Source of the DNA: a virus
IMG/VR virus record: IMGVR_UViG_3300031952_000028
Span: 1 to 48,731 of that record
Length of the DNA: 48,731 nt
Strand: one strand, 5' to 3'
The notes beneath the pieces were generated by a model that had not been told where the DNA came from, made no database searches, and saw only the letters and a program-made list of their open reading frames with translations. The translations under genes were made by a program, and so were the position numbers. Within the stretch, counting starts at the first letter, position 1. Every line of letters begins with the position of its first letter. Shown one piece after another: positions 1 to 48,731 of this stretch.

Positions 1-43
1 CCTCGGCGGTCCGTATCACTAAAATGCCCAAACAGGACCCAAG

Positions 44-164
44 TTATCCACAGGTTGAAACTCCGCACCAGTTGCGGCCTGACAGCCCTTGCCTAAAAGT
101 TATCCACAGTTTATCCACAAGATATTCACATACTTATCCACAGTTTATCCACAGTTTATCCACA
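44..164 (+). other. DnaA-box array, candidate replication origin
   Basis: Six perfect TTATCCACA nonamers, the consensus DnaA box, lie on the same strand at 44-52, 100-108, 111-119, 134-142, 145-153 and 156-164. An 8-of-9 match (ATATTCACA) at 122-130 fills the gap. From 100 on, the starts run 100, 111, 122, 134, 145, 156, close to one box per DNA helical turn. An A+T-rich stretch follows and then the ParB-like gene. The likely role is host-DnaA binding, either as an origin or as a titration site; the sequence alone cannot separate these. Confidence 0.85.
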
Positions 165-240
165 GGGTAAAATAATCATTCCATCGATCACCTTAACAAC
201 CACTTCTTTTAAGATGATCGAAAATAAATGAAAATAGGAG

Positions 241-274
241 TTGACATTAATGTATAGAATGTATATAATGTATA
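241..274 (+). promoter_or_regulatory. Consensus sigma70 promoter with tandem 9-bp operator
   Basis: A perfect -35 TTGACA (241-246), a 17-bp spacer and a perfect -10 TATAAT (264-269). Three tandem 9-mers, TAATGTATA, GAATGTATA and TAATGTATA (248-274), cover the spacer and the -10, so a bound protein would block RNA polymerase. The block 241-321 recurs at 932-1012 with one mismatch. The RHH protein encoded between the two copies is the obvious candidate ligand (inference). Confidence 0.85.
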
Positions 275-761: not shown

Positions 762-935
762 ATGAAAAAACGAGACAACACGATTGAGATCCGAATCAGG
801 GTAGCAATCGAGACCAAAAATGAGTTCCAGAATGTTTGTTTTTTGAATGGAAAAAAAACTATGACTTCGGTCATTGAGGAATTAATAAAGGGTTTCATCC
901 AGGAAAAAAGTAAAATAAATAAAAATAACTCTTGA
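762..935 (+). CDS. Ribbon-helix-helix (CopG/Arc-like) DNA-binding protein
   Basis: A 57-residue gene with GGAG 6 nt before the ATG. The protein opens with an alternating strand (TIEIRIRVAIE), then helix 1 (TKNEFQNVCFLNG), a turn and helix 2 (MTSVIEELIKGFI), the classic ribbon-helix-helix layout of plasmid and phage repressors. RHH dimers bind short tandem or inverted DNA repeats. The gene sits between two identical promoters that each carry three 9-bp repeats, and its stop codon overlaps the -35 of the second. Autoregulation of its own and the neighbouring promoter is therefore likely (inference). Stop codon at 933-935. Confidence 0.8.
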   Translation: MKKRDNTIEIRIRVAIETKNEFQNVCFLNGKKTMTSVIEELIKGFIQEKSKINKNNS

Positions 936-965
936 CATTAATGTATAGAATGTATATAATGTATA
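932..965 (+). promoter_or_regulatory. Second copy of the sigma70 promoter/operator
   Basis: -35 TTGACA at 932-937, 17-bp spacer, -10 TATAAT at 955-960, and the same three 9-mers at 939-965. The whole 932-1012 block matches 241-321 with one substitution, including the leader and AAAAAGGAGAA ribosome-binding site. It drives the gene at 1017 and should be co-regulated with the ParB-like promoter. Confidence 0.85.
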
Positions 966-3013: not shown

Positions 3014-3029
3014 GATATTTAAAATAACC

Positions 3030-3109
3030 TTGCCATGCCTTGCCTCGCCGTGCCGTGCCTTGCCAAGCCAAGCCTAGCCTCGCCGGGCCACGCGAGGCCT
3101 TGCCTCGCC
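3030..3109. repeat. Degenerate pentanucleotide array 1 (NNGCC x16)
   Basis: Sixteen 5-bp units of the form NNGCC (GGCNN on the transcribed minus strand); one unit deviates (ACGCG) and a partial unit follows. The dinucleotides run TT AT TT TC GT GT TT AA AA TA TC GG, one deviant, AG TT TC. It sits between the gene at 3141-3668 and the sigma gene, and is joined on its sigma side to the minus-strand string GGCAAGGTTATTTTAA, shared with arrays 2 and 3. Confidence 0.9.
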
Positions 3110-3668: not shown

Positions 3669-3701
3669 GATTAATCCTCCTTTGAGTAAATTAAAATAAC
3701 C

Positions 3702-3781
3702 TTGCCTCGCCCCGCCTTGCCTAGCCTCGCCTTGCCCCGCCTGGCCTCGCCATGCCTTGCCTCGCCTCGCCAAGCCTAGCC
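3702..3781. repeat. Degenerate pentanucleotide array 2 (NNGCC x16)
   Basis: Sixteen perfect NNGCC units: TT TC CC TT TA TC TT CC TG TC AT TT TC TC AA TA. GCC is invariant and only the dinucleotide varies. On the minus strand it lies directly upstream of the ribosome-binding site of the 3141-3668 gene, after the shared junction GGCAAGGTTATTTTAA. Confidence 0.92.
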
Positions 3782-3794
3782 ACGAAATAAAATA

Positions 3795-4394: not shown

Positions 4395-4427
4395 GAAATA
4401 CCTCCTTTAAGTAAAATTAAAATAACC

Positions 4428-4527
4428 TTGCCTCGCCCCGCCTTGCCTTGCCTCGCCGTGCCGTGCCTTGCCAAGCCGGGCCACGCCTGGCCTTGCCTGG
4501 CCTTGCCCCGCCATGCCTTGCCTCGCC
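4428..4527. repeat. Degenerate pentanucleotide array 3 (NNGCC x20)
   Basis: Twenty perfect NNGCC units: TT TC CC TT TT TC GT GT TT AA GG AC TG TT TG TT CC AT TT TC. The run TC GT GT TT AA is shared with array 1, so the arrays are related by duplication. Same minus-strand junction GGCAAGGTTATTTTAA before the ribosome-binding site of the 3795-4394 gene. Confidence 0.92.
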
Positions 4528-4549: not shown

Positions 4550-6181
4550 TCATCCCACCGCGGACAATTGCCGGTTAACCCTCTTTGCATTCTTCTTAGC
4601 AAAAAATTGCCCGATCAGATCTGTAGCATCTCCTTTACTGATGCCTTCCTGATATGCCCCAATTTTTTTAAGCAATTCGATTTGCTTCTCACTGGCCAAA
4701 ACCTTCCGCCATTTTGCATTTTTTGCCGCAAAGGTTCGCCCGCCATTCCTGCGGACGTAATCCTCGCACACACCTTGCCCGTAACCCAGATTAAGTGGCG
4801 TAGGGTGCAGCAACTCCGGCCCTGCATCCTTGCAGATCACGAACGCCTGAAAATGTCCGCCACCATCGGGCATCAAAATAGCATTCACTCCGGGAGACAC
4901 AGGTAAAACCCACTGCTGCCCATCAAAAATCCAACGGAATTGAGATTTGTTAAGTAAATCAAACTCCTCGATTGAGATAGGAGGCAGGTCAAAGGAGAGC
5001 TGCTCATAAGCTTTCTTTTTTTGGTCCTCTTTCTCCGGTTTCTTTTCCGGCTCTTTGAGCGTCTCAATAACCGATTTACCGTCCTGCATCCGGTCGCCGT
5101 CCCATCCGAGCAGATCAGGCAGGCCACAGATATCGTGCCTGTTATCGCAAAAATCAATTACTACGCAGTCAGTTTTTCCCGGATGCCGCCGGGTGCCCCT
5201 GCCTACACATTGAGTGTAAAGTGCCTGGCTCTTCGTAGGACGACACATCAGAACACACTCTATAGTCGGCTCGTCAAAGCCTTCAGTGAAGAGGGCACAG
5301 TTGGTTAATATCCTGATATCACCCCTGGAAAATGCTCGCAGCGCCTCCGCCCTCTCCTCCTCCGGAGTAAACCCGCTGAGCGCCTTTGCCTCGATGCCGT
5401 TTCCCCTGAATATCTCCGCCAGGTCCTCCGAGTGCTGAACATTGGCGCAGAAGGCAAGAGCTTTACGCCCTGGAGCGTGCTCCTGATAGCTCTTTATTAC
5501 CAACTCGTTTCGCTCTTTGGTATTGACAGCCTGGGCCAGTTGCGATTCGATGTAATCTCCACACCGGGTTCCAACCCTGGAGAGATCGGTCTCGGTCTGC
5601 GCCCGGTAGCCGCGGATATCAGACAGATATCCGGCGCGGATCATGGTCAGAATGCTCACCGAGTACACGATTTTTTGGAAAATATGGCCCAGGCCCAGGC
5701 CGTCCATCCGGCACGGAGTGGCAGTACAGCCGAATAGCACCCGGCGCGGATCATCTGAGCCAAAGCCCAAACCATCAATAATGTAACGATACGTATCACT
5801 TGCAGCGTGATGGCTCTCATCGACAACGAGCAGGCCGAAGCCCTCATCGAGGACCTGGCTTAATCGCCTTTTTCTTGAGAGCGTCTGGACCGAGGCACAA
5901 ACTACATTTTTATCGTGAAAGTCATTCTCTTTGCCCTTGACCACTCCGATTACTGCCTCCGGCCAGACCATCGAGACTTTATCCGCAGCCTGGCGGATCA
6001 ATTCGTCACGATGGGCCAGGATCAACGTTTTACGCCTCGATCTGCGGGCCATTTCGGAAAATATGATAGTCTTCCCACAGCCTGTGGGCAACACGGCCAG
6101 AATACGTGTCAAACCCTCGCGGGAGGCATTGCGAATTTCGGTAAGGGCATCTTCCTGATAATCCCTGAGTTGTATTGCCAT
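4550..6181 (-). CDS. SF2 DNA helicase (DEAD/DEAH type)
   Basis: A 543-residue superfamily 2 helicase. Motif I PTGCGKT lies at about 32-38, motif II DESH at 121-124, motif III GCTATP at 151-156 and motif VI QCVGRGTRR at 324-332, all intact. Residues beyond about 390 form a phage-type C-terminal extension with EFDLLNKSQFRWIFDGQQW. Such proteins unwind or remodel DNA and RNA at phage forks, and several phages encode one beside SSB, as here (10 bp from the SSB gene). It probably acts in origin opening or recombination-dependent replication (inference). Confidence 0.9.
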   Translation of the reverse strand: MAIQLRDYQEDALTEIRNASREGLTRILAVLPTGCGKTIIFSEMARRSRRKTLILAHRDELIRQAADKVSMVWPEAVIGVVKGKENDFHDKNVVCASVQTLSRKRRLSQVLDEGFGLLVVDESHHAASDTYRYIIDGLGFGSDDPRRVLFGCTATPCRMDGLGLGHIFQKIVYSVSILTMIRAGYLSDIRGYRAQTETDLSRVGTRCGDYIESQLAQAVNTKERNELVIKSYQEHAPGRKALAFCANVQHSEDLAEIFRGNGIEAKALSGFTPEEERAEALRAFSRGDIRILTNCALFTEGFDEPTIECVLMCRPTKSQALYTQCVGRGTRRHPGKTDCVVIDFCDNRHDICGLPDLLGWDGDRMQDGKSVIETLKEPEKKPEKEDQKKKAYEQLSFDLPPISIEEFDLLNKSQFRWIFDGQQWVLPVSPGVNAILMPDGGGHFQAFVICKDAGPELLHPTPLNLGYGQGVCEDYVRRNGGRTFAAKNAKWRKVLASEKQIELLKKIGAYQEGISKGDATDLIGQFFAKKNAKRVNRQLSAVG

Positions 6182-6779: not shown

Positions 6780-7238
6780 TCAAATAGTCATTTGCCTGTC
6801 GGCCATCGTCATTTTTCGATTTTCCACAATTTCATACGTATCAAGACGTTGAGCAATAACGTATCCCGTCGCAAAATCCCTGACCGTTTCGCAGTCAATT
6901 TGCCGATACTCATATCCGGAGCTGATTTTCTCTGCACACTCCGAAATAACCGCCTCCGCCTGTTTTTTTCTCGCGTTAAATTGACCTTGGATGCTCTTCA
7001 ATTCATTAGTTACCGAGTCTTTTTCTTTCACGTTGCGAGCCATTTCCTCAGAGAGAGTTTTCTTTTCGGACTCAGTAAACTGATATTTTAAAAACTTCTT
7101 ACTTTTTTCTCTGTCACCGGCATCAGCATGTTTTCCCATCACTACTTCAGCCATCTGAGAGGCCATTAAAACATCCTCTGCATCTGCTGCCAATTCCTTA
7201 GCAGATTTCGTTTCTTCCTGTACATCCTTTTTTCTCAT
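6780..7238 (-). CDS. Hypothetical coiled-coil early protein
   Basis: A 152-residue protein. Residues about 40-110 are strongly helical and charged (EKKTLSEEMARNVKEKDSV, then QGQFNARKKQAEAV), a predicted coiled coil. The C-terminus has the pattern SGYEYRQIDCETVRDF...QRLDTYEIVENRKMT that recurs in a group of phage early proteins of unknown function. Its ATG overlaps the primase stop by 4 bp, and the next start is about 20 bp downstream, so it belongs to the replication operon. Confidence 0.7.
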   Translation of the reverse strand: MRKKDVQEETKSAKELAADAEDVLMASQMAEVVMGKHADAGDREKSKKFLKYQFTESEKKTLSEEMARNVKEKDSVTNELKSIQGQFNARKKQAEAVISECAEKISSGYEYRQIDCETVRDFATGYVIAQRLDTYEIVENRKMTMADRQMTI

Positions 7239-8509
7239 AAATTTTGTACCTCCCTATATACTTTTAATGCCTCCACCCAACTTCCCTGCCAAAGATTATA
7301 AGCCTCGATAAAATCATTTATTTTCAATCTTCCGGCCATAACCAAATCATAGACCTCCGCTATCCAGGCAAAATCTTCCTGCCATGTTTTAATAAAATCC
7401 GGCCTGTTTTTTTCAATCCAGGTATAACAGTCACAGGTGAGGGTCCTATCGTATGCCTCCACCCCTGCCGCGGAAATGGCCGCCATGATTCCGGAGAAAT
7501 CCTTTTCATCAATATTGTCCAACTGCTGAATAATTGGCACCTGTATTGGCGCGGCAATGTCCAAGGATTTTCTGGTTTGTCTATGCTTTTGCTCGTGTGC
7601 CTGCGGAAAATATTTATTGATTCCGATAGCTATCCATTCCTGAAGTTCCACTCCGTTTACCCACATTTCCCCAGGATCTTTTCCCTCGATCGGGGGGAGC
7701 CTGCGCGCCTGTGGAAAATGCTGCATCCACCACTGCGCCTCTTTCGCTCCCGGATTCTGCCCATCCTCCCTGTCCTCATCACTATCCAGCGCCACCAGGA
7801 TCAAATCCGCTGCCTGTAACAACTCAAAAGCCCGTTTGTCCGGCCTGACCGATGCGCTGCCAAGGGCCACCACTCCGGCAAGGGGAGAGGCCATATTGCC
7901 AAGTTCCTGAGTCAGAAGAATAGCGTCAAACTCCGATTCGACTACCACAATGACCTGGTGGGGTTCGGTCGGGATCATAGCCGCCGAAGTGGAGCCGGAA
8001 ACTATTGCATAAGCCGGCCCCTGTTCGGGGGTGCGGCTCTGTTGATTTAACCGCCTGATTTTCGCTCGCTGAAGAATCCCGTCAGCAAAGTATGGGATCA
8101 CGATCCCTTGCGGCAGCCAGATATCCTGTTGTGTGCCGTCTTCTTTGAGCTTTTCAGGGAGACCCCAGAAAACACGCTCACGATTCAATCCTACGGGGTT
8201 CCACCCCAGGCGTGATAGTTTGATCGTGTCGAGAGTCAGCCCCCTCTCAGAACGCAAATAAGAGAGGATTCCGGTATTATTTAAAAGCTGCGCATATGCC
8301 CAGTCAACAAAAGCAGAGCACTTTTGGGTCCATTCAGGTGAAGGCGGAGTAATTTCCCGCGGGGTCCACTTGCGGCCATTACCATTCCTTTTTTCATATT
8401 GCTGGAACTTGCCGCAATCTGCACAATCTACACGGAGGTGGACCATCCCGTTTGAGCAAATCTGATCACTTTTTTTTAAATTATTGCTTCCGCAATGTTT
8501 GCATGTCAT
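7235..8509 (-). CDS. DnaG-like TOPRIM primase
   Basis: A 424-residue primase. An N-terminal zinc ribbon uses C3, C6, C29 and C32. The RNA-polymerase-like part follows, and the TOPRIM domain has its glutamate in VIVVVESEFDAILL (E191) and the DxD in LVALDSDEDRED (D242, D244). There is no helicase domain; the C-terminal region (about 330-424) is helical and may dock a helicase or SSB. It makes RNA primers for lagging-strand synthesis. Its ribosome-binding site is weak (CAGGTAG), and a candidate short ORF overlaps its start by 29 bp. Confidence 0.9.
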   Translation of the reverse strand: MTCKHCGSNNLKKSDQICSNGMVHLRVDCADCGKFQQYEKRNGNGRKWTPREITPPSPEWTQKCSAFVDWAYAQLLNNTGILSYLRSERGLTLDTIKLSRLGWNPVGLNRERVFWGLPEKLKEDGTQQDIWLPQGIVIPYFADGILQRAKIRRLNQQSRTPEQGPAYAIVSGSTSAAMIPTEPHQVIVVVESEFDAILLTQELGNMASPLAGVVALGSASVRPDKRAFELLQAADLILVALDSDEDREDGQNPGAKEAQWWMQHFPQARRLPPIEGKDPGEMWVNGVELQEWIAIGINKYFPQAHEQKHRQTRKSLDIAAPIQVPIIQQLDNIDEKDFSGIMAAISAAGVEAYDRTLTCDCYTWIEKNRPDFIKTWQEDFAWIAEVYDLVMAGRLKINDFIEAYNLWQGSWVEALKVYREVQNL

Positions 8510-8720: not shown

Positions 8721-8733
8721 CCGCTCACCCTCC

Positions 8734-9384
8734 TTATGTCTATTAACATATTGATAACGTTATAAAAGTAACATTGTTACCCTTTTGTTACCTTTTTATC
8801 ATCTATTAATATATTGATAATATTAATCATGTAACCATTGTAACCATTGTAACCTTTTTTGAACGGAGCACACAGCCTATGAATATTCCCTAATGTGTAG
8901 TACATGTGTATTACACGTTCTTGTGCGTACCCTATTCTTAAAAATGGTTACAATGGTTACAATGGTTACATAATAATATCAAATCTTTGTTTTTATTAAT
9001 AATTAATTGTAACCTTTTTAAAAGTAAAAAGGTTACAATGGTTACATTATTGAATTCATTATGTCTATTAACATATTGATAACGTTATAAAAGTAACATT
9101 GTTACCCTTTTGTTACCTTTTTATCATCTATTAATATATTGATAATATTAATCATGTAACCATTGTAACCATTGTAACCTTTTTTGAACGGAGCACACAG
9201 CCTATGAATATTCCCTAATGTGTAGTACATGTGTATTACACGTTCTTGTGCGTACCCTATTCTTAAAAATGGTTACAATGGTTACAATGGTTACAAATAA
9301 TATCAAATCTTTGTTTTTATTAATAATTAATTGTAACCTTTTTAAAAGTAAAAAGGTTACAATGGTTACATTATTGAATTCATT
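8734..9384. repeat. Tandem 325-bp duplication with TGTAACC/GGTTACA iterons
   Basis: Copy 1 is 8734-9058 and copy 2 is 9059-9384, identical by eye except for small differences including a 1-bp gap near 8971/9295. Each copy holds three TGTAACCAT units at 9-bp steps (8830, 8839, 8848 in copy 1), three inverted GGTTACAAT units (8946, 8955, 8964), a hairpin of TGTAACCTTTTT and AAAAAGGTTACA, and more single motifs, about nine exact 7-mers per copy. The sequence is very A+T-rich and lies between the PrimPol-helicase and primase genes. It is a candidate iteron origin or a regulatory region. Confidence 0.88.
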
Positions 9385-9439
9385 GATTAAATTAAATGAC
9401 AGCACTTTAAAAATATACATTTAACTTGTGTTATTTTAA

Positions 9440-12376
9440 TTAAAATGGTAGTATTTCACTCTCATAACTCCAAAATTCGGAAAGTTCAAGCCTTTTGATT
9501 GTCATTTTGTCAATATTTAGCTCAAAAGCTTTTCTTACGTTTTGCCCAATTCTTACAGGTTTGTTACTGTTCATGTAGTACGATTCTCTTTGTAACTGCT
9601 TTTTGAAGATTGATTCCGGCAACAAATCACCTTCGAATCTATAAGATTTTGCCCACTTTAGAAACTTTGGATAAGAACCATGAACATATAGCCTTAAAAC
9701 TGATATTCCAGGTTCATAAATGATATCGTAATCAACATCTTTCTCTAAATAATCCTGGTAGGAATATTGTCTCTCTTCTCTGTTTCCTATAGTTTTAGTC
9801 TGGAATTCACACATTAAACACATAGCTTCGAGAATTTTGTCAACTGCACTTTTACGGTGGAATGAATCGCCTTCTTTGATCCCTTCCTTAACCGCTACAT
9901 CAACCTGCGATAGGTCAAATTGCATCCCTAACACATCGCTCAAGATCCGAAGACCAAACCTGACCACTGCTGCATTAGTTCGCGGCCTGTCCTCGAGTTC
10001 AGAATCAACCGCTTCAAGCTCCTTTTCCAGGATATTTTTGACCTCTTCCCTGCCCATTCTGAGAGCCTTTTCCAGGATAGACCGACCCAGTTTTTCAAGT
10101 GGTTGTTTGCGCAATTCTTTAAAGTTTTGCAAATATGGAGAACTATCCCTTTTAGAGAGAAACACGGTGACAAACCTATCCAGTAAGGCAGATTCGGTGA
10201 ATCCGGTTTCTCCGATTATTACCACGGGTGCCTGATATCGATAAACCTGTGTAGTCTGATCGGCCCTGCCCCGCTCACCTTCGAGACAATTATAAATTGA
10301 TCTTATGAGATTACTGATAAGGTTCTGGAAGTAATCTGTCTGCATACATGCCTTATTTTCTTCCAGAATTACAGGTATCGTGTTTGAGCCGTCAACCATT
10401 TTCATCATTGTGAATTTAGTGAGTTCACCGATAGATTTTGGTTCCCCCTGGATAGCCCACATTCGCATAATAACCGCTTCTGCACTTTGCGTTTTCCCCG
10501 ATCCAGCTTCCCCTTGGATGTTCAAAAGAGGGAATCCGTTACTTAAGCCTATTTCATCCAAAGTTTCCGAGATAATGGATTTTAAAAAGCAAGCTGTAAT
10601 CCATCCCAGGACAGGTAAGGATACTATGGAAATATTGAAGTTAGCGATATGCTTTCTTATCCCTGAAAGTTCGTCTGCTGTAGCCGGTTCCACGGATAAT
10701 AGCTTGCAGTTAGTAGGCACCTCATTAAAATAGACAACATCCTCAGATATGCCTTGGATAGACAAGGCACCCTCTTCGGTAACGAATTTACCATCGTGAA
10801 AACCTGAAGTCCTCACTCCAGCCTTGTGTGCCATCTCGAAGGTAGACATAAGAAATCTGATATACTGAACATCTATCGTACTTCCAGCGAAGACGGTTTC
10901 CTTGCCTGGCAGGACATTCATAAACTTTTGGGTATTTGACCAACATCCGGGAGGGAATAAGACTTTTTTAAATTCTTTGTATCCAGCTTTGATATTTACG
11001 TTGAGAGTTTCACCTTCACCTTTGATGGTAATTGATTCGATAGGTTCAATGCTAAAAGTGGTTATCTGCACCTCTTCACGGATCTTTTCTCCGAATCTTT
11101 CCTTAATCTTAATTTTCCAAATTCGGCCATCTTTCTCGAAAACCGGATTACTGATGTAGCGGTTTAATTCTTCTTCAGTATTTTTCAGCGCCTTGGATTC
11201 GGTCTCTTTTTGTGCTTTTTCTTCCTTCCATGCCTTCAAAAGACCTTTTATCTCGTCAGCACTAAGAGAGAATTTTTTTTTGAGTTGTTCCTTTAGGATT
11301 CGGTTAACTTTTAGCTCATCACATTCAATAAGATCATTCAGAACGAAATATCTAACCTGGCTGATAGCTTCTGTAGGATCTGGATTGACTTCAAGCCTGT
11401 TAATTTTTTTTTTCCATAACTCATCAATATCCTGTCTGTTTTGAGAGATAGCCTCTGCCGAAGTGGCCTGCTTTCCACGACCTCTGCCTTTATAGGTCTC
11501 AATACAGCCCTCAATGGCCCTGGATATGGTCATATCTCCATAGGTCTCTTCTCCATGCCGTTCATCCCATTTATCACGCATCAGACCGGATTGCCTGAAA
11601 AATGCATCTATCCGGTCATAGTCCTTTTTTGTCCAGAAAGCCAATTTTGAACACAGAGAAAGTTCGGCCTCACTTTGAGAGCGAAAACCTGATATATCAC
11701 CTTCCCAGAGGGCTTTAAATTCATGGCCATTTTTGGAATTTATGGCCTTATTGATCAACTCAGTATCGGATATGCTCAGAATGACATCTGTTTTATGCCC
11801 CCCCCCACTGTGTAACCTGCTGGGATGGTCTTCCAACAAACTGAAATGGATATCATTAATTTCATTTTGTCGTTTTTCTATGAGGGCAGGAGTGTTGTCC
11901 AGACGATTTCCGGTTATGGTCAGAAATCGACCCCTGACATAAATTTCGATGTCACCCCTTTTACACCGCCCAATAGGTTTCAGGGCTTCCGCATAAATGT
12001 GTACTCCTGTTCCTGAAGGAGAAAATTCACTATAAGAATTAAGTTGGTCGATGATCTTTTGCGCCCAGGGGAGAATAACGCCATTTTCAACGCAATGATC
12101 GAGATCGATTCCCGTATAGGGGTCGTCGTCGTAAAATTCAAAACCTAATCCATTATATTTTTTACTTTTTAAAGCATTACAAGCCTGTTCGAAGGTTCCC
12201 CAGGTCGCAGGATCATTCGCTTTTGCTGGATGTCCTGTTTTGGGGTCATAGGGCACTTTAGCCAGTTTGGATTCACCTTTGTCGATAAGTTTGTAACACA
12301 CCCAATGAGGATAATCCCGCAACTGTTGAGGGATATTATTAATTTTCCCAGAAAAATCATTATCGTTATCATTCAT
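9440..12376 (-). CDS. PrimPol (AEP) primase-polymerase fused to SF3-like helicase
   Basis: A 978-residue replication protein. Residues about 15-185 form an archaeo-eukaryotic-type primase: DxD in YTGIDLDHC (D91, D93), SPSGTGVHIYAEA with H126, and IEIYVRGRFLTITG. A helical linker (about 310-400) follows. A C-terminal AAA+/SF3-type helicase has Walker A GEAGSGKT near 622-629, Walker B-like VILEEN near 669-674 and sensor FVTVFLSKRD. Such proteins can prime and copy DNA and unwind it, as in phage and plasmid replicases such as NrS-1 polymerase. No other replicative polymerase is seen in the window. It ends about 55 bp from the iteron duplication. Confidence 0.9.
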   Translation of the reverse strand: MNDNDNDFSGKINNIPQQLRDYPHWVCYKLIDKGESKLAKVPYDPKTGHPAKANDPATWGTFEQACNALKSKKYNGLGFEFYDDDPYTGIDLDHCVENGVILPWAQKIIDQLNSYSEFSPSGTGVHIYAEALKPIGRCKRGDIEIYVRGRFLTITGNRLDNTPALIEKRQNEINDIHFSLLEDHPSRLHSGGGHKTDVILSISDTELINKAINSKNGHEFKALWEGDISGFRSQSEAELSLCSKLAFWTKKDYDRIDAFFRQSGLMRDKWDERHGEETYGDMTISRAIEGCIETYKGRGRGKQATSAEAISQNRQDIDELWKKKINRLEVNPDPTEAISQVRYFVLNDLIECDELKVNRILKEQLKKKFSLSADEIKGLLKAWKEEKAQKETESKALKNTEEELNRYISNPVFEKDGRIWKIKIKERFGEKIREEVQITTFSIEPIESITIKGEGETLNVNIKAGYKEFKKVLFPPGCWSNTQKFMNVLPGKETVFAGSTIDVQYIRFLMSTFEMAHKAGVRTSGFHDGKFVTEEGALSIQGISEDVVYFNEVPTNCKLLSVEPATADELSGIRKHIANFNISIVSLPVLGWITACFLKSIISETLDEIGLSNGFPLLNIQGEAGSGKTQSAEAVIMRMWAIQGEPKSIGELTKFTMMKMVDGSNTIPVILEENKACMQTDYFQNLISNLIRSIYNCLEGERGRADQTTQVYRYQAPVVIIGETGFTESALLDRFVTVFLSKRDSSPYLQNFKELRKQPLEKLGRSILEKALRMGREEVKNILEKELEAVDSELEDRPRTNAAVVRFGLRILSDVLGMQFDLSQVDVAVKEGIKEGDSFHRKSAVDKILEAMCLMCEFQTKTIGNREERQYSYQDYLEKDVDYDIIYEPGISVLRLYVHGSYPKFLKWAKSYRFEGDLLPESIFKKQLQRESYYMNSNKPVRIGQNVRKAFELNIDKMTIKRLELSEFWSYESEILPF

Positions 12377-15216: not shown

Positions 15217-15593
<377 letters not shown>

Positions 15594-19948: not shown

Positions 19949-20195
19949 ATTAATATCCTTTTCCCGTTAAGGGAAGGAAGTTGTAGAAGATTTAAGGGAA
20001 TTGGGATATAAAATCAGGTAAATAACAAAACAAATGAATAATAATGCCTTGCTTTTATTCACTCAGCAACAGCTCTCCGCTCTTCAGGCTCAGCTCGTCG
20101 CCTGGCAGCAGCAATCGGCGAGTGCTGCTGATTTGACAAATAATATCAATTTATTGCATAATCTCTCATATAATGAAGTTATGGAGGGATTATGT

Positions 20196-21416
20196 ATGAA
20201 AGGGCACATAAGGGCAAAGGGGAAATGTGAGGAGTGTGGAAACAATTTTAAAGATTTTGGGCATATTCTGGCCTGCGAGACTTGTCTATCAAAGGCAAAA
20301 ATCAGCATCCCGAAGCGGTTGTATCTGGAGATTTTCTGGAATGGAAAGCAGAGAAAAATCTACTCGGATAATGACGGCAGGGTATTAAACAGCTATGAGT
20401 TAGCACAGAGGGTTGTGTCCGAGATCAGGCAAAAAATCGACAAACATAAGTTCAATCCGGCTGACTATGTGGCGAAGAGCTACCAAGCCCTTCAATGGGA
20501 ACAATATTGCAAAAACTATCTGGCCAGGCGAAAAGAGAAAAAAGAGCGCGGGGAGCTGTCACTTTCTACGCTTCTGCATGATCAGTATACAGTCGGCAAA
20601 TATATTACCTTCTTTGCATCGTTCGCAGGGAAAGATCTTCGTGATATCAGGGCAGGGGATATCGAAGATTTCAGGTTATCGCTGCCTAAAAAATTAAAAC
20701 TCTCCTCTCAGAAGGAAACTCTTTCCATTCTCCATAATATTTTTCAGGAAGCAAAAAAGCGGGAAGACCTCAAAGTTATTCCTGATTTTCCTCTCATCAA
20801 AACGATGGAGGTCCAGCGGAAATGGCTTGATGAAGAGGCGCAGACCCTCATATTTGCCCATATCCCTGATCGGCATAAAGCAATTTTTACCTTTATGTTT
20901 AAGCAGGGGTGCAGGCCGGGAGAGGCCCGTGCCCTGCAATGGGAAGACGTGGATATGATCAACAAATATGTGCATATCCGGAGGACATTTTCGAGGGGGG
21001 AATATCAGGCCGATCGCACAAAAACGAAACGAGGGAGAATCCTCCCCTTGAATGATGAGGTCTGTGAGATTCTGAAAGGAATGCACGTCAAAGGGATATC
21101 AGGATTTGTCTTTCGTCAGGAACGGACAGGGAAACCGTACCTTGCCGGATGCACTTTGAACGACGTCTGGGATACGGCCCTCAAACTGGCAGGAGTTCCA
21201 CGGGTGACGCTTTATGAAGGCACCCGGCATTCCTTTGCAAGCCAGGCCGTACAGGAGGGTGTGGATCTGTATGGATTGCAAAAATTCTTAGGGCATACCG
21301 ATTCAAAAATGACAGAGAGGTATACGCATATAGGTGTTGAGGGTTTGCAACGGGTTTTGGATATCAAGGAGGGGAAAGTTGTAAAGATGGGAAAAAGGAA
21401 AGAAAAAGAAAAATGA
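20196..21416 (+). CDS. int: Tyrosine recombinase (phage integrase)
   Basis: A 406-residue integrase from the ATG at 20196, where GGAGGG lies 8-9 nt upstream and the product starts MKGHIR as is usual for the family; the frame is open to 20034 (460 residues) with a poor site. An N-terminal zinc ribbon uses C11, C14, C27, C30. The core-binding domain follows, then the catalytic domain: R240 (GCRPGEARAL), a Lys near 277, R344 (YEGTRHSF), H367 (LGHTD) and nucleophile Y376 (TERYTHIG). The usual His of HxxR is Glu341. It should catalyse attP x attB recombination. Confidence 0.93.
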   Translation: MKGHIRAKGKCEECGNNFKDFGHILACETCLSKAKISIPKRLYLEIFWNGKQRKIYSDNDGRVLNSYELAQRVVSEIRQKIDKHKFNPADYVAKSYQALQWEQYCKNYLARRKEKKERGELSLSTLLHDQYTVGKYITFFASFAGKDLRDIRAGDIEDFRLSLPKKLKLSSQKETLSILHNIFQEAKKREDLKVIPDFPLIKTMEVQRKWLDEEAQTLIFAHIPDRHKAIFTFMFKQGCRPGEARALQWEDVDMINKYVHIRRTFSRGEYQADRTKTKRGRILPLNDEVCEILKGMHVKGISGFVFRQERTGKPYLAGCTLNDVWDTALKLAGVPRVTLYEGTRHSFASQAVQEGVDLYGLQKFLGHTDSKMTERYTHIGVEGLQRVLDIKEGKVVKMGKRKEKEK

Positions 21417-24414: not shown

Positions 24415-25662
24415 TTAATCTCCTATCAAATCGAAAGAAGTACTTGGTTTTTTTAAACTCATACTGGCCGAAGGTTTTTTTAAACTCATCATGGCCAATA
24501 CTGCTTTGAACAGAAATCCATCGATAAAATCAAACGGTATTTCTGAATTTTGAGCTATTGTTTTGAGTACATTTACGGAGAAGGTGGAAGTTACGGAAAC
24601 CAGATGAGTGGCCCCTTCTCCGTAGACCAGATCAATGATGATTTGATCGTCATGAATCAACCATTTGAGAGACTGAATATTTATTCCGCTGGTTATCTGC
24701 AACTTTTTTACAAAATCAACAGGGAATTGTTTGTCGACAGAGAGATTCTTTATGAGATTGACGGGTAATTGTTTGTCAACAGAAAGATTCTTTATGAGGT
24801 CAACAGGGAATTGATTATCGACAGAAAGACCTTTTATGAGATTGACAGGTAATTGTTTATCGACAGAGAGATTCTTCACAAGGTCAACAGGGAATTGTTT
24901 GTCAACAGAAAGATTCTTTATGAGGTCAACAGGGAAAACAGAATCTTTTGTGACCAATACTGAAGAGACTGACCACAACCGACCCCGTCCAATCGGTCGA
25001 AGCATGGCATAAGGGTCAGCGTGCATCTGTTTGACGATATTAATATCTGCAATATTGAAAAAGGCGGCATGTTCTGTTATTTCATTAGTTAAATAAGTTC
25101 CATCGCTATATCCCCCAAAAGCAGAAACGATCAAATCGTAATTATTAGGTAAGGTCTGAGTAGCGCCGACCTGACCGCCATTCACAAAAAAGGAAATAGA
25201 TTTTGCACTGCGGGTAATGGCTAAGTTTACCGATTGACCTACAATTTGGGTATAAGAGACAGCCACCACATTGCCCGTCGCCGCTGAATATTTAAATTGA
25301 TTAGAGCTGTTCAGATCAATTGCATAGTGACCGGCAGCCCCTGCCAATATCAATTCGGCAACGGTCGCTGCAAGGATATTTACCTTGCAACAAACCGTAT
25401 GTACCGTGCCGAGATTCAGAGAAGGGAAGGTGGCAATTTTAGTAGTGGAGTTAGCGCCGCCAGGAAAATTGAGACCAGTTGGTGCCCATGTCAAGGCAGA
25501 ACCAAGGGTCAAATTATATTGATTCTTTTTATCGAAACGACTCCCATTCAATGGCCAATACGCACCTAAGTATTGAGACATTGGATGATTTGGATCAATC
25601 TCAAACAATCCTTGAATAGGTTTTTCGTATGGGTTATAAAGACCGTATTTATGCCGAAACAT
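24415..25662 (-). CDS. LamG-like tail protein with 14-residue repeats
   Basis: A 415-residue protein. Residues about 28-210 fit a concanavalin/LamG jelly roll (YLGAYWPLNGSRFD, then LNFPGGANSTTKIATFP and FFVNGGQVGATQTLPNNYDL). After a conserved PYAMLRPIGRGRLW hinge come five full and one decayed copies of FPVDLIKNLSVDKQ (243-326), then a C-terminal strand region. LamG domains bind glycans or proteins, so this is a candidate receptor-binding or tail-tip protein. Its start shares one base with the upstream gene end. Confidence 0.75.
   Translation of the reverse strand: MFRHKYGLYNPYEKPIQGLFEIDPNHPMSQYLGAYWPLNGSRFDKKNQYNLTLGSALTWAPTGLNFPGGANSTTKIATFPSLNLGTVHTVCCKVNILAATVAELILAGAAGHYAIDLNSSNQFKYSAATGNVVAVSYTQIVGQSVNLAITRSAKSISFFVNGGQVGATQTLPNNYDLIVSAFGGYSDGTYLTNEITEHAAFFNIADINIVKQMHADPYAMLRPIGRGRLWSVSSVLVTKDSVFPVDLIKNLSVDKQFPVDLVKNLSVDKQLPVNLIKGLSVDNQFPVDLIKNLSVDKQLPVNLIKNLSVDKQFPVDFVKKLQITSGINIQSLKWLIHDDQIIIDLVYGEGATHLVSVTSTFSVNVLKTIAQNSEIPFDFIDGFLFKAVLAMMSLKKPSASMSLKKPSTSFDLIGD
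24685..24936 (-). repeat. 42-bp coding tandem repeats
   Basis: Six units of 42 bp encode F/L-P-V-D/N-L/F-I/V-K-N/G/K-L-S-V-D-K/N-Q. Units 1, 2 and 4 and units 3 and 5 are most alike, so the block grew by duplication of a two-unit step. Copy number could vary between strains. Confidence 0.85.
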
Positions 25663-46105: not shown

Positions 46106-47974
46106 TTACGACATCCATTTACTTTTTACCACCGGCTGCGGCTTCTTCTCGGTTTCAACCGGCTTACCCTTATGCATATCCCCCAAACTTTCCTCAATGG
46201 CCCTCCAATTCATCCGCGCTATCCCCGCCCGCACTGCCGCTGCTGTAGAATATACAAAGCAGTCGAGCACTTCGTTGCGCTCGGCTACCTTCACCCATTC
46301 AGATTTCGGGTAACCTCCCCTGTCAAACCGTGTGACCTGCTTTTCCGCAGTCAACTGGATGTAAAAATCATCGTCCAGTCCGATCGGAAAATGGACCATG
46401 CCAGGTCCCTGCTTGTCCATTTTCAATCTGCCGTATATTTGCCCCTTGGCAGTGTCAGCCCCGACCGGCCAGAGCTGGCAGCCTCCCTTGATCTGCACTC
46501 CCCTATAGGTCACATCGACCAGGCCTGGCCTGCCCAGGATCGGTTTATTAGGAGTGGACATAGATTTTATCGCGACCACGCGGGGAGAACGCATCCGACA
46601 ATAATTGTATACCTCCTGCGTATGATGCCCGCCAGAATCTATACAGGTAGACGCTATCTTCAGATCGACCCCGCTGGCATGGTGAAAGGACATATTCAGC
46701 AATTCATCGAGTTGATGCCATACCCCCGGCTGTGACGGATCTCCATAAAGTTCTCCCCAGTATGTAATCCAGCACTCCTCACCCCGCCCCCAGGCCGTCA
46801 CCAGGACGGCCAGCCGGTTATCCTGCGTATCGACTCCACAGGTGAGGAGTAACCCGCCAAGAGGAATTGTGGCAACCGGATACGGTTCGGCCCGGCCCTT
46901 AAGCAAATTCCACTCAGGCTGTGAGCCATCCTCCTCAAAAGGGAGGCCCTCACGAGTGTTCACCCAACGCTTCAGTCGCGATTTATTCTTCCGTGCTCTC
47001 AGAAATTCATTCGCAATCGCCTTCCAGCCGATAAATCCCAGGGGGGCATAGAAAGAATTTAAGCAAAATCCGGCATCAGAATGTCCAGGATTTTTCTTTA
47101 CCCATTCACCCTGTTCAAGCATCCAGGTTTTATGATACTCCTCGATTTTTTTGTGACAAAACCTGCATTCGTACCAGATTTTCGAGACACTGTTACCTTT
47201 ATATTCAAATTTTATGCCATGGTCCGTATCCCTGCCTCCCCATTCGAGAATCTGTTTCTGATGACAGTACGGGCAGGGAACGTGGTATTCCCTTTGATCT
47301 GACTCTTGAAATTCTGCCCAGATCCTGGAAATTTCTTTTCCTCCGGCAGGAGTGCTCATAGTCAGAATTTTCGAATCATAGTAAGCATCGGCCCTGTTTA
47401 TCGCCAGGTCTCCGGGGTCTCCTTCCCCGTCAACATCCGAAGGATACCCATCAAAATCGTCCCTGATAACTACCTTGACCGAATCTGAACGGAAAGAGGC
47501 CGCGCTGTTTGCCCCGACCAGATTGATCGACCCGCCCGGAAACTCCTTAAACAGGATTGTGTTGCCGGAGCTGCGTCCGCCCTCCTTTATCAGCCCCTGA
47601 AGGACAGGGGTTTCTCTGATCGTTTTCATCAGTTTCTTTTTGCTGTGCTTCTCGGCCAGGGCAATCGTAGGAAAGACAAACAGGATCGGGCAGGGATAAA
47701 GGTGCATCAGGAAGCATATCCAATTATTGGCCGCCTCCGTAGCACCGATCTGCGTGGGTTTCATAACTTTTATGTGGCGCACAGGAGAGGAGGGAGAAAG
47801 GCAGAGCATTATCTCCCGAAGATAGGGGGTCCGTGACAGCCGGTAAGGGCCAGGTTCAGGATAACCCTTCGGCATAATGCGAAATTTGTCCGACCAGTCA
47901 GGGAGATCGATAAGCGGATCTGGCTTGAATGCTGATTTTACAGAATCCCATACTATTTCATACACAGAAGTCAT
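46106..47974 (-). CDS. Large terminase subunit (GpA family)
   Basis: A 622-residue packaging motor and nuclease of the lambda GpA family: DWSDKFRIMPKGYPEPGPYR, HIKVMKPTQIGATEAANNWI (Walker A region), VIRDDFDGYPSDVDGEGDPG, the zinc-like CPYCHQKQILEWGG ... CRFCHK, and the nuclease half with LLLTCGVDTQDNRLAVLVTA. Length matches lambda gpA (641). It cuts at cos and pumps DNA into the prohead. Its ATG overlaps the small subunit gene by 4 bp. Confidence 0.95.
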   Translation of the reverse strand: MTSVYEIVWDSVKSAFKPDPLIDLPDWSDKFRIMPKGYPEPGPYRLSRTPYLREIMLCLSPSSPVRHIKVMKPTQIGATEAANNWICFLMHLYPCPILFVFPTIALAEKHSKKKLMKTIRETPVLQGLIKEGGRSSGNTILFKEFPGGSINLVGANSAASFRSDSVKVVIRDDFDGYPSDVDGEGDPGDLAINRADAYYDSKILTMSTPAGGKEISRIWAEFQESDQREYHVPCPYCHQKQILEWGGRDTDHGIKFEYKGNSVSKIWYECRFCHKKIEEYHKTWMLEQGEWVKKNPGHSDAGFCLNSFYAPLGFIGWKAIANEFLRARKNKSRLKRWVNTREGLPFEEDGSQPEWNLLKGRAEPYPVATIPLGGLLLTCGVDTQDNRLAVLVTAWGRGEECWITYWGELYGDPSQPGVWHQLDELLNMSFHHASGVDLKIASTCIDSGGHHTQEVYNYCRMRSPRVVAIKSMSTPNKPILGRPGLVDVTYRGVQIKGGCQLWPVGADTAKGQIYGRLKMDKQGPGMVHFPIGLDDDFYIQLTAEKQVTRFDRGGYPKSEWVKVAERNEVLDCFVYSTAAAVRAGIARMNWRAIEESLGDMHKGKPVETEKKPQPVVKSKWMS

Positions 47975-48522
47975 TTTATTTTTGCTAAAATTAAATTTAT
48001 CTCAATCTTCAGGGCCTGTTCAACGGCAAATCTAACCTCATCGGAACAGGGAAGACCGGAGCATATTCTTTGTGGTATATTTATTACAATATCCCTTATT
48101 ATTCTATTTGCCTCATAGATCTCCTTTTTTACTTCTATAGAAGGGATAAGCGTTTCTCTCAATAACTCATATTCCATTTTTTTCAAAAGAGCGTTATAGA
48201 TTTCTCTGAATTTTTGAGCCTCAAAATAACTATCACTCTTCAAGATTTTTTCATTCGTAATCCCTATGGCTTCATAAATAGAAATCTCTGATAATTCCGA
48301 GACGGGCTGTAATTTTGGTCTTCCAACCTTTCTTGGTTCAGGCAATTCCATTACTGTTGCCTGATTTTTTATTTCTCCGAGCGAAATATCTGCCTTTCCA
48401 GGATCGATCTTGCCATCATATTCAAGTATTATTTTTCCATTTTTTATCAACTTGCTTATATACGCAGGGCTAACACCTCTATGACGAGCATATTCTGATT
48501 TAGTCATTAACCTTGCAATCAT
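47971..48522 (-). CDS. Small terminase subunit (Nu1-like)
   Basis: A 183-residue protein from the ATG at 48522 (GGGAAAAG upstream; 48507 is a second choice; the frame runs to 48585). The N-terminus TKSEYARHRGVSPAYISKLI is a winged-HTH as in lambda Nu1, which binds cos. A linker with an AT-hook-like KVGRPKLQP leads to a long helical region (RETLIPSIEVKKEIYEANRI), as in phage terminase small subunits of this length. It recruits the large subunit, with which it is translationally coupled. Confidence 0.85.
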   Translation of the reverse strand: MIARLMTKSEYARHRGVSPAYISKLIKNGKIILEYDGKIDPGKADISLGEIKNQATVMELPEPRKVGRPKLQPVSELSEISIYEAIGITNEKILKSDSYFEAQKFREIYNALLKKMEYELLRETLIPSIEVKKEIYEANRIIRDIVINIPQRICSGLPCSDEVRFAVEQALKIEINLILAKIK

Positions 48523-48607
48523 AAATCTTTTCCCAAAAACAATGGAAGTTGTGTTCCCTGCTCTATTCTTCCACCCTTTGAACAATTTTCACTGTCAAAT
48601 AGACCAA

Positions 48608-48664
48608 TGATACAACATTTAACGAATACAATACTATTGTACCACATTTAACCAGTTAAATCAA
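48608..48664 (-). promoter_or_regulatory. Late/terminase promoter with palindromic operator
   Basis: Leftward -35 TTGATT (48664-48659), 17-bp spacer, -10 TACAAT (48641-48636). The perfect 7-bp inverted repeat TACAATACTATTGTA (48627-48641) covers the -10, and the 13-mer TAC(A/C)ACATTTAAC repeats at 48611-48623 and 48640-48652. It should drive the packaging and head genes and looks negatively or positively controlled at the -10. Confidence 0.65.
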
Positions 48665-48720: not shown

Positions 48721-48731
48721 CCTCGACGGTC
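48721..48731 (+). other. 11-bp near-terminal direct repeat, possible cos/junction
   Basis: CCTCGACGGTC at the end matches CCTCGGCGGTC at 1-11 with one difference. Both are GC-rich islands at the edges, just upstream of the small terminase gene, where cos lies in lambda-like phages. It may be part of a cos site or a chance similarity; joining the ends would test it. Confidence 0.3.

Follow-up and report, generated by a model that had tools for sequence, protein, structure and literature searches.

A helically phased array of DnaA boxes near a putative cos end of a phage genome, and its recurrence in viral DNA

Introduction

At the E. coli origin oriC, oriented strong and weak boxes guide the formation of a DnaA oligomer, and both box orientation and spacing by whole helical turns matter for DnaA there, according to the available part of a review (PMC4285127). 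A second E. coli locus, datA, is described in the available part of PMC5835720 as a cluster of DnaA boxes able to take up DnaA. It consists of two consensus boxes and four boxes with one misfit each, and an IHF site is needed.

Clusters of DnaA boxes are also already known on phages. In T5, divergent pre-early promoters flank the boxes at 6121 and 6194, which share a strand and belong to the DNA annotated as first-entering, and a further box at 9510 falls within the injection-stop region; DnaA boxes are a named feature of the T5 injection stop in the part of PMC13250531 that was available. Among the isolates compared in this analysis, Shigella phage A7 has an array of four perfect and four one-mismatch boxes in its 177-base terminal repeat, all on one strand and many of them 11-12 bp apart, and similar arrays are present in its relatives P483 and nasanit. 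Three one-strand boxes lie 49-92 nt from the right end of the Arthrobacter phages Seahorse and Tiff81. Vibrio phage BD5, Lactococcus phage phiL47, Moraxella phages, Staphylococcus phage vB_SscM-1 and Enterococcus phage Efs 1-1-1 also carry boxes or arrays, with no tie to a known terminus. Phased DnaA arrays as a recurring phage feature were not found described in the literature searched, which left most subscription journals outside it, and a term search found no mention of DnaA in PMC3326045 or PMC8108384.

The DNA analysed here (the window, which is the whole IMG/VR viral record of 48,731 bases) carries an array of DnaA boxes close to its left end. The array resembles the T5 boxes in its likely place in first-entering DNA, but the first 12 kb of T5 hold a pair of perfect boxes at a distance of 73 bp and one at 9510, with no tight 11-bp array, and T5 has a long terminal repeat in place of the cos-like end of the window. 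It resembles the A7 array in its single orientation and its steps, although A7 is a T7-like Berlinvirus with the array at both ends. As in the window, terS stands at the end opposite the boxes in Seahorse, where it starts 64 nt from the left end; the differences from Seahorse and Tiff81 are their three boxes, the 12- and 23-bp steps and the split large terminase. The strong boxes of oriC are few and spaced, whereas the window holds six perfect ones, of which five form an 11-bp tandem, and lacks a defined unwinding element. Unlike datA, bases 1-600 of the window contain no match to the IHF consensus WATCAANNNNTTR.

Results

The features of the window that bear on the array are collected in Table 1. 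Every perfect TTATCCACA box of the window falls inside the array. Shuffles of the whole window (n = 300) gave a mean of 0.41 perfect boxes and a maximum of 3, with never more than one within 121 bp, and shuffles of bases 1-330 (n = 2,000) gave a mean of 0.004 and a maximum of 1. It is clear that the consensus DnaA boxes of the array are beyond chance.

Table 1. Coordinates of the array and of associated features in the window
Feature	Position	Strand	Basis or remark
DnaA-box array	44-164	+	six perfect TTATCCACA boxes at 44, 100, 111, 134, 145, 156
11-bp tandem repeat of DnaA box, unit TTATCCACAGT, 5.9 copies	100-165	+	Tandem Repeats Finder
Degenerate box ATATTCACA, at the in-phase position between the boxes at 111 and 134	122-130	+	consensus comparison
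Left record end CCTCGGCGGTC, putative cos end	1-11		10/11 identical to right end
Right record end CCTCGACGGTC, putative cos end	48721-48731		10/11 identical to left end
Terminase small subunit (terS)	47971-48585	-	phrog_57 6e-18
Terminase large subunit (terL), lambda gpA-like	46106-47974	-	phrog_15 1e-224; phage protein matches
Two 22-nt direct repeats between terS and record end	48611-48661		repeat search
Perfect consensus sigma-70 promoter TTGACA-17-TATAAT	241-269	+	76 bp past last box, directed away from array
Second identical consensus promoter	932-960	+	inside second leader copy
First gene past array, 133 aa	327-728	+	weak ParB/nuclease-like N-terminal similarity, phrog_940 7e-4
Rival origin candidate: 325-bp tandem duplication, AT-rich, 12 GTAACCATT iterons	8731-9395		repeat search
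DNA primase-like protein	7235-8509	-	phrog_47 3.5e-13
Prim-pol/helicase, NrS-1-like N-terminal part	9440-12376	-	profile matches
Tyrosine integrase	20034-21416	+	PF00589 4e-25; phrog_1 9e-51

The initial annotation of this DNA had read the locus as a helically phased set of DnaA boxes at the packaging end, and this interpretation is supported, with some changes of detail. Six perfect boxes on one strand within 121 bp are present as claimed; the seventh, counted there as matching eight of nine positions, does so only against TTWTNCACA, the relaxed DnaA-box consensus quoted in the available part of PMC5835720, and matches TTATCCACA at seven of nine, so that it fails both consensuses. The 11-11-12-11-11 bp steps from position 100 hold if this degenerate unit is counted. 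The proposal that the boxes would place DnaA on one face of the helix stands as an approximation: the phase is good across the six units from 100 but drifts by around 100-120 degrees, and the box at 44 does not share this phase. The boxes were called by the DnaA consensus, from which the specificity of the host's DnaA may differ; tRNA genes and Rfam families, sought in the window as clues to the host, gave no match. Judged from its sequence, the array is very probably bound by the DnaA of the host.

The array was also said to lie beside the packaging end, and the gene order agrees. With the lambda cos gene layout as reference, terS and terL adjoin one record end, the TerL is of the gpA type, and terS starts 146 bases from the record end opposite the array with terL next to it. 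Randomly placed pairs of sites were as alike as the two record ends in 130 of 400,000 trials. The gap of 146 bases, the two 22-nt repeats within it, which are possible TerS-binding, cosB-like sites, and the near-matching ends together give the look of a lambda-type cos layout, and on these features it is probable that the record ends in cos sites. The array would then lie at the end distal to terS, the one that enters the cell first in lambda-type phages. The sequence CGGCGGTC is common to the left end of the window (4-11) and the right end of Seahorse (L221:5-12), near the terminus in each; the terminases of the two differ.

Beyond the array, a 101-bp leader is duplicated at 94% identity (221-321 and 912-1012), each copy with one consensus promoter matching at 12 of 12 positions. 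In both leaders the promoter lies over 9-bp AATGTATAG repeats, which are operator-like, and a different small gene follows. The product of the first gene matched no Pfam family in the profile scan. The flank on the CACA side of the array (165-300) has an AT content of 71% and ranks with the least stable 5% of the 150-bp tiles into which the window was divided. On the 3' side of the array, the 5' side being shorter than 60 bases, no DnaA-trio (three TAG/TAA) was found within 60 bp.

The array had been described as far from the phage's own primase and helicase genes, which is not borne out: the helicase, primase and prim-pol genes lie only 4.4-12.3 kb from it, and the distance is therefore not especially great. 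The replication set found by profile scans consists of SSB, primase, helicase and prim-pol. The GTAACCATT iterons occur in both orientations in the duplication and nowhere else in the window, with the prim-pol gene adjoining, and this region is a probable iteron-type phage origin and a better origin candidate than the array. No plasmid Rep or ParA family was found among the window proteins scanned (some small ORFs fell outside the scan), and the tyrosine integrase points to an integrating rather than a plasmid prophage. The suggestion that the array is the origin of a plasmid-like phase is weakened by these three results. Further repeats were noted elsewhere in the window: 5-bp CCTTG/CCTCG tracts by early-region gene boundaries (3028-3079, 3700-3782 and 4426-4527), 12/18-bp tandem repeats at 15218-15570 that encode Arg-Leu runs on one strand and, on the opposite strand, Ser-Leu/Arg runs, and 5.3 copies of a 42-bp tandem repeat (24715-24936) within the 24415-25662 gene of the structural region.

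Viral contigs contain a triple of perfect boxes phased at 11 bp in at least 119 stretches; among the control patterns in viral DNA, the reversed box gave one match, a 16-bp spacing two and a 22-bp spacing 51. The 22-bp matches were then read in 43 newly fetched loci, where 41 of 47 had no perfect box in between. Their 94 intermediate 9-mers comprised 34 with four or fewer matches to the box, seven with five, 44 with six to eight and nine that were perfect, as against only 8 of 188 9-mers with five or more matches at control offsets. Since 34 of the 94 intermediate positions hold no box-like sequence, the phase is kept there without a repeat unit. Whole-turn spacing is kept both with and without weak filler boxes, and weak fillers at 11-bp steps are common in other viral arrays. 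By reading of the loci, around nine in ten of the at least 119 arrays are on one strand, although the selection was itself a one-strand triple. The array of the window has the same pattern as these recurrent phage arrays, being on one strand, spaced by whole turns and in a noncoding stretch.

The carriers are varied. In 59 of the 119 loci listed, a TerL of one linked cluster lies within 4 kb, and this cluster divides into 13 groups at 50% linkage; a Pfam terminase family was named in six of ten representatives scanned, and the L119 protein is 54-64% alike to annotated terminases. In one locus (L099:3524-5929) an intein interrupts the large terminase (Pfam Intein_splicing 4e-15). Several array loci are microvirus-like by reading of their capsid and replication proteins, and annotated microvirus records were also matched. 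In five such contigs (L010, L028, L032, L073 and L079) the spacer that holds the phased array is noncoding, and the array may serve in complementary-strand priming. One viral contig (G001) has seven boxes within a 221-base end repeat. At around 20.5 kb in another (L057, record G038) four phased boxes are followed by TAG/TAA runs in an oriC-like arrangement, which may represent a genuine DnaA origin or else come from the host. An array query matched 11 of 72,556 plasmid records at E ≤ 1 and 414 of 50,697 phage records at E ≤ 10, a contrast that is only suggestive because the E limits differ.

A sample independent of the arrays was obtained by fetching relatives of the largest terminase group by TerL alone; 80 loci were fetched, 64 were entered, and the 44 with at least 2 kb upstream were used for box counts. 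Upstream of TerL, at least one perfect box was present in 18 of the 44, at least two in 16 and at least three in 13, with none in 26. The TerL-chosen loci held 69 boxes in 107.8 kb upstream and none in 110.5 kb downstream, and the reversed-box control found none in them. On one strand were 15 of the 16 arrays, and the 49 same-strand spacings had a period of 10.6-10.7 bp (R = 0.663), a value that none of 5,000 random sets reached. A period of 11 fits these spacings almost as well (R = 0.652), so they cannot alone separate the helical repeat from an 11-bp unit; and because the TerL relatives share ancestry, the independent array events are fewer than 16.

A different result was obtained with the terminase of the window itself. 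None of 80 prophage or genome loci had an array near a TerL related to it, three of them (L139, L140 and L143) having single perfect boxes upstream, and 11 viral relatives found by the window TerL had no perfect box. The array is therefore not inherited with the terminase. Nor can it be traced within the phage's own lineage, as no relative of the prim-pol was found and the 327-728 protein gave one short match only.

Several features of placement and flank were compared across the arrays. Of the 59 arrays with a linked-cluster TerL within 4 kb, 58 stand upstream of TerL; as evidence for packaging this placement was rejected, a noncoding-DNA null giving P = 0.45. Contig-end positions were taken for 66 of the 80 loci with listed lengths, out of the 119 listed, and a contig end is 300 nt away or less in nine of 40 dereplicated arrays, where 2.7 would be expected. 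One contig (G045) stops within a tandem repeat, and the 127-base end repeat of another (G006) resembles an assembly overlap; the enrichment is in part one of assembly breaks and is weak evidence for physical ends. A shared unwinding element was rejected, as no consistently easy-to-melt flank was found at 64 of the 79 dereplicated arrays (p = 0.14), and DnaA-trio-like runs stand by arrays in only two other loci. At 12 of the 79 dereplicated arrays a consensus promoter stands 330 bp away or less, and 11 of these 12 are directed away from the array. The array-promoter distances vary, and a classic promoter-proximal regulator was rejected; since arrays and promoters both require noncoding DNA, their association may be indirect.

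Discussion

The reading of function that we place first, with a probability of roughly 0.4 as judged from sequence, is that the array serves as a sink for DnaA. Host DnaA would assemble on it cooperatively as an ordered oligomer, the strong boxes nucleating and the weak ones filling the phase; the one-strand, whole-turn, strong-plus-weak order fits such an assembly. On the terS-distal, first-entering end, next to a promoter of perfect consensus that would serve the first genes, the array would form a platform for host DnaA at the early end of the genome. As the phage genomes multiply they would soak up DnaA, so that host initiation would be held back, DnaA-controlled genes altered and host resources freed. 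Among the genes under DnaA control is nrdAB.

Two considerations put the sink ahead: this phage and several other carriers have, or should have, a replication start of their own, and the numbers are within reach. According to the available part of PMC5835720, E. coli has around 200 DnaA molecules per origin, and the mioC region, with one consensus box, titrates around eight; some tens of phage copies would thus be enough. The separate iteron-type origin candidate in the window argues in the same direction, as does the occurrence of boxes or arrays in T5 and in a T7-like Berlinvirus, both of which are expected to replicate without oriC. The density of the box cluster far above chance, the scarcity of the reversed and 16-bp control patterns, and the periodic one-strand arrays of the TerL-chosen sample are also consistent with a sink. 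The initial annotation had offered titration as its second reading, by analogy with datA; titration is possible, and plausible by numbers only after the phage genome has multiplied, but the strict analogy is lost with the missing IHF site.

Other points count against the sink. A single infecting genome has far too few boxes to matter, and phages that destroy the host DNA would profit little from a block of oriC. The array was not passed on with the terminase, and the DnaA specificity of the host may differ from the consensus. Furthermore, a sink needs neither one orientation nor phase, so the observed order argues for more than sequestration.

That order could instead reflect an auxiliary DnaA-dependent origin, in which the array would oligomerise DnaA, the AT-rich DNA at 165-300 would melt and host DnaB would be loaded on the circularised genome. 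The phased strong and weak boxes on one strand do resemble the oligomerising regions of oriC, as far as the available part of PMC4285127 describes them; the flank is of low stability, and the L057 locus has TAG/TAA runs beside its array. We consider this origin unlikely, since the phage has its own iteron candidate beside prim-pol, melting flanks and trio-like runs are not a consistent companion of the arrays, and similar arrays occur in phages with independent replication.

Alternatively, DnaA at 44-164 may repress or activate the promoter at 241 and its duplicate, by which early or lysogeny genes would sense the DnaA state of the host. The closeness of a perfect promoter, the outward direction of nearly all promoters near other arrays and the position of T5 boxes 6121 and 6194 between divergent promoters would agree with regulation. 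We regard it as doubtful, because most of the other strong promoters are 130-270 bp from their array, too far for ordinary contact, the company of promoters may come from a common need for noncoding DNA, and the Seahorse array lies downstream of its nearest gene.

It is also conceivable, if rather improbable, that DnaA bound at the end aids terminase processing, DNA entry or end protection, much as IHF assists at lambda cosB. The arrays within the terminal repeat of A7 and the end repeat of G001, the Seahorse boxes some 50-96 nt from the right end, the window array 44 bases from a cos-like end and the excess of arrays near contig ends all point this way. Boxes have also been proposed in the T5 injection-stop region, in the part of PMC13250531 available. 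Against such a role, the position upstream of terL is what noncoding DNA would give, some of the contig ends are assembly breaks in repeats, and microviruses, which are without such ends, carry arrays too. Finally, that a box-containing 11-bp unit was expanded by slippage to no function is very improbable: bases 100-165 are indeed a tandem repeat and a period of 11 fits the spacings nearly as well as 10.6, but the same box recurs in many unrelated phages with a single reversed match as control, boxes are kept while arrangements differ, and the 22-bp phase is kept without intermediate boxes.

More broadly, and tentatively, phased DnaA arrays at the early or terminal genome end might be a device of phages in general, acquired on many independent occasions, by which an oligomer of host DnaA would be ordered on phage DNA. 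Its purpose would be to capture the initiator as infection begins or, alternatively, to provide the ends with a DnaA-dependent role. Its carriers would be lambda-like, T7-like, T5-like and actinophages, and possibly the single-stranded DNA microviruses. DnaA is the master switch of bacterial replication, and if diverse phages do evolve ordered end arrays independently, then seizing or using DnaA would be a common step of infection. If true, this could be tested in laboratory phages, namely T5, with its known boxes, and a T7-like Berlinvirus in which a DnaA array takes up most of the terminal repeat.
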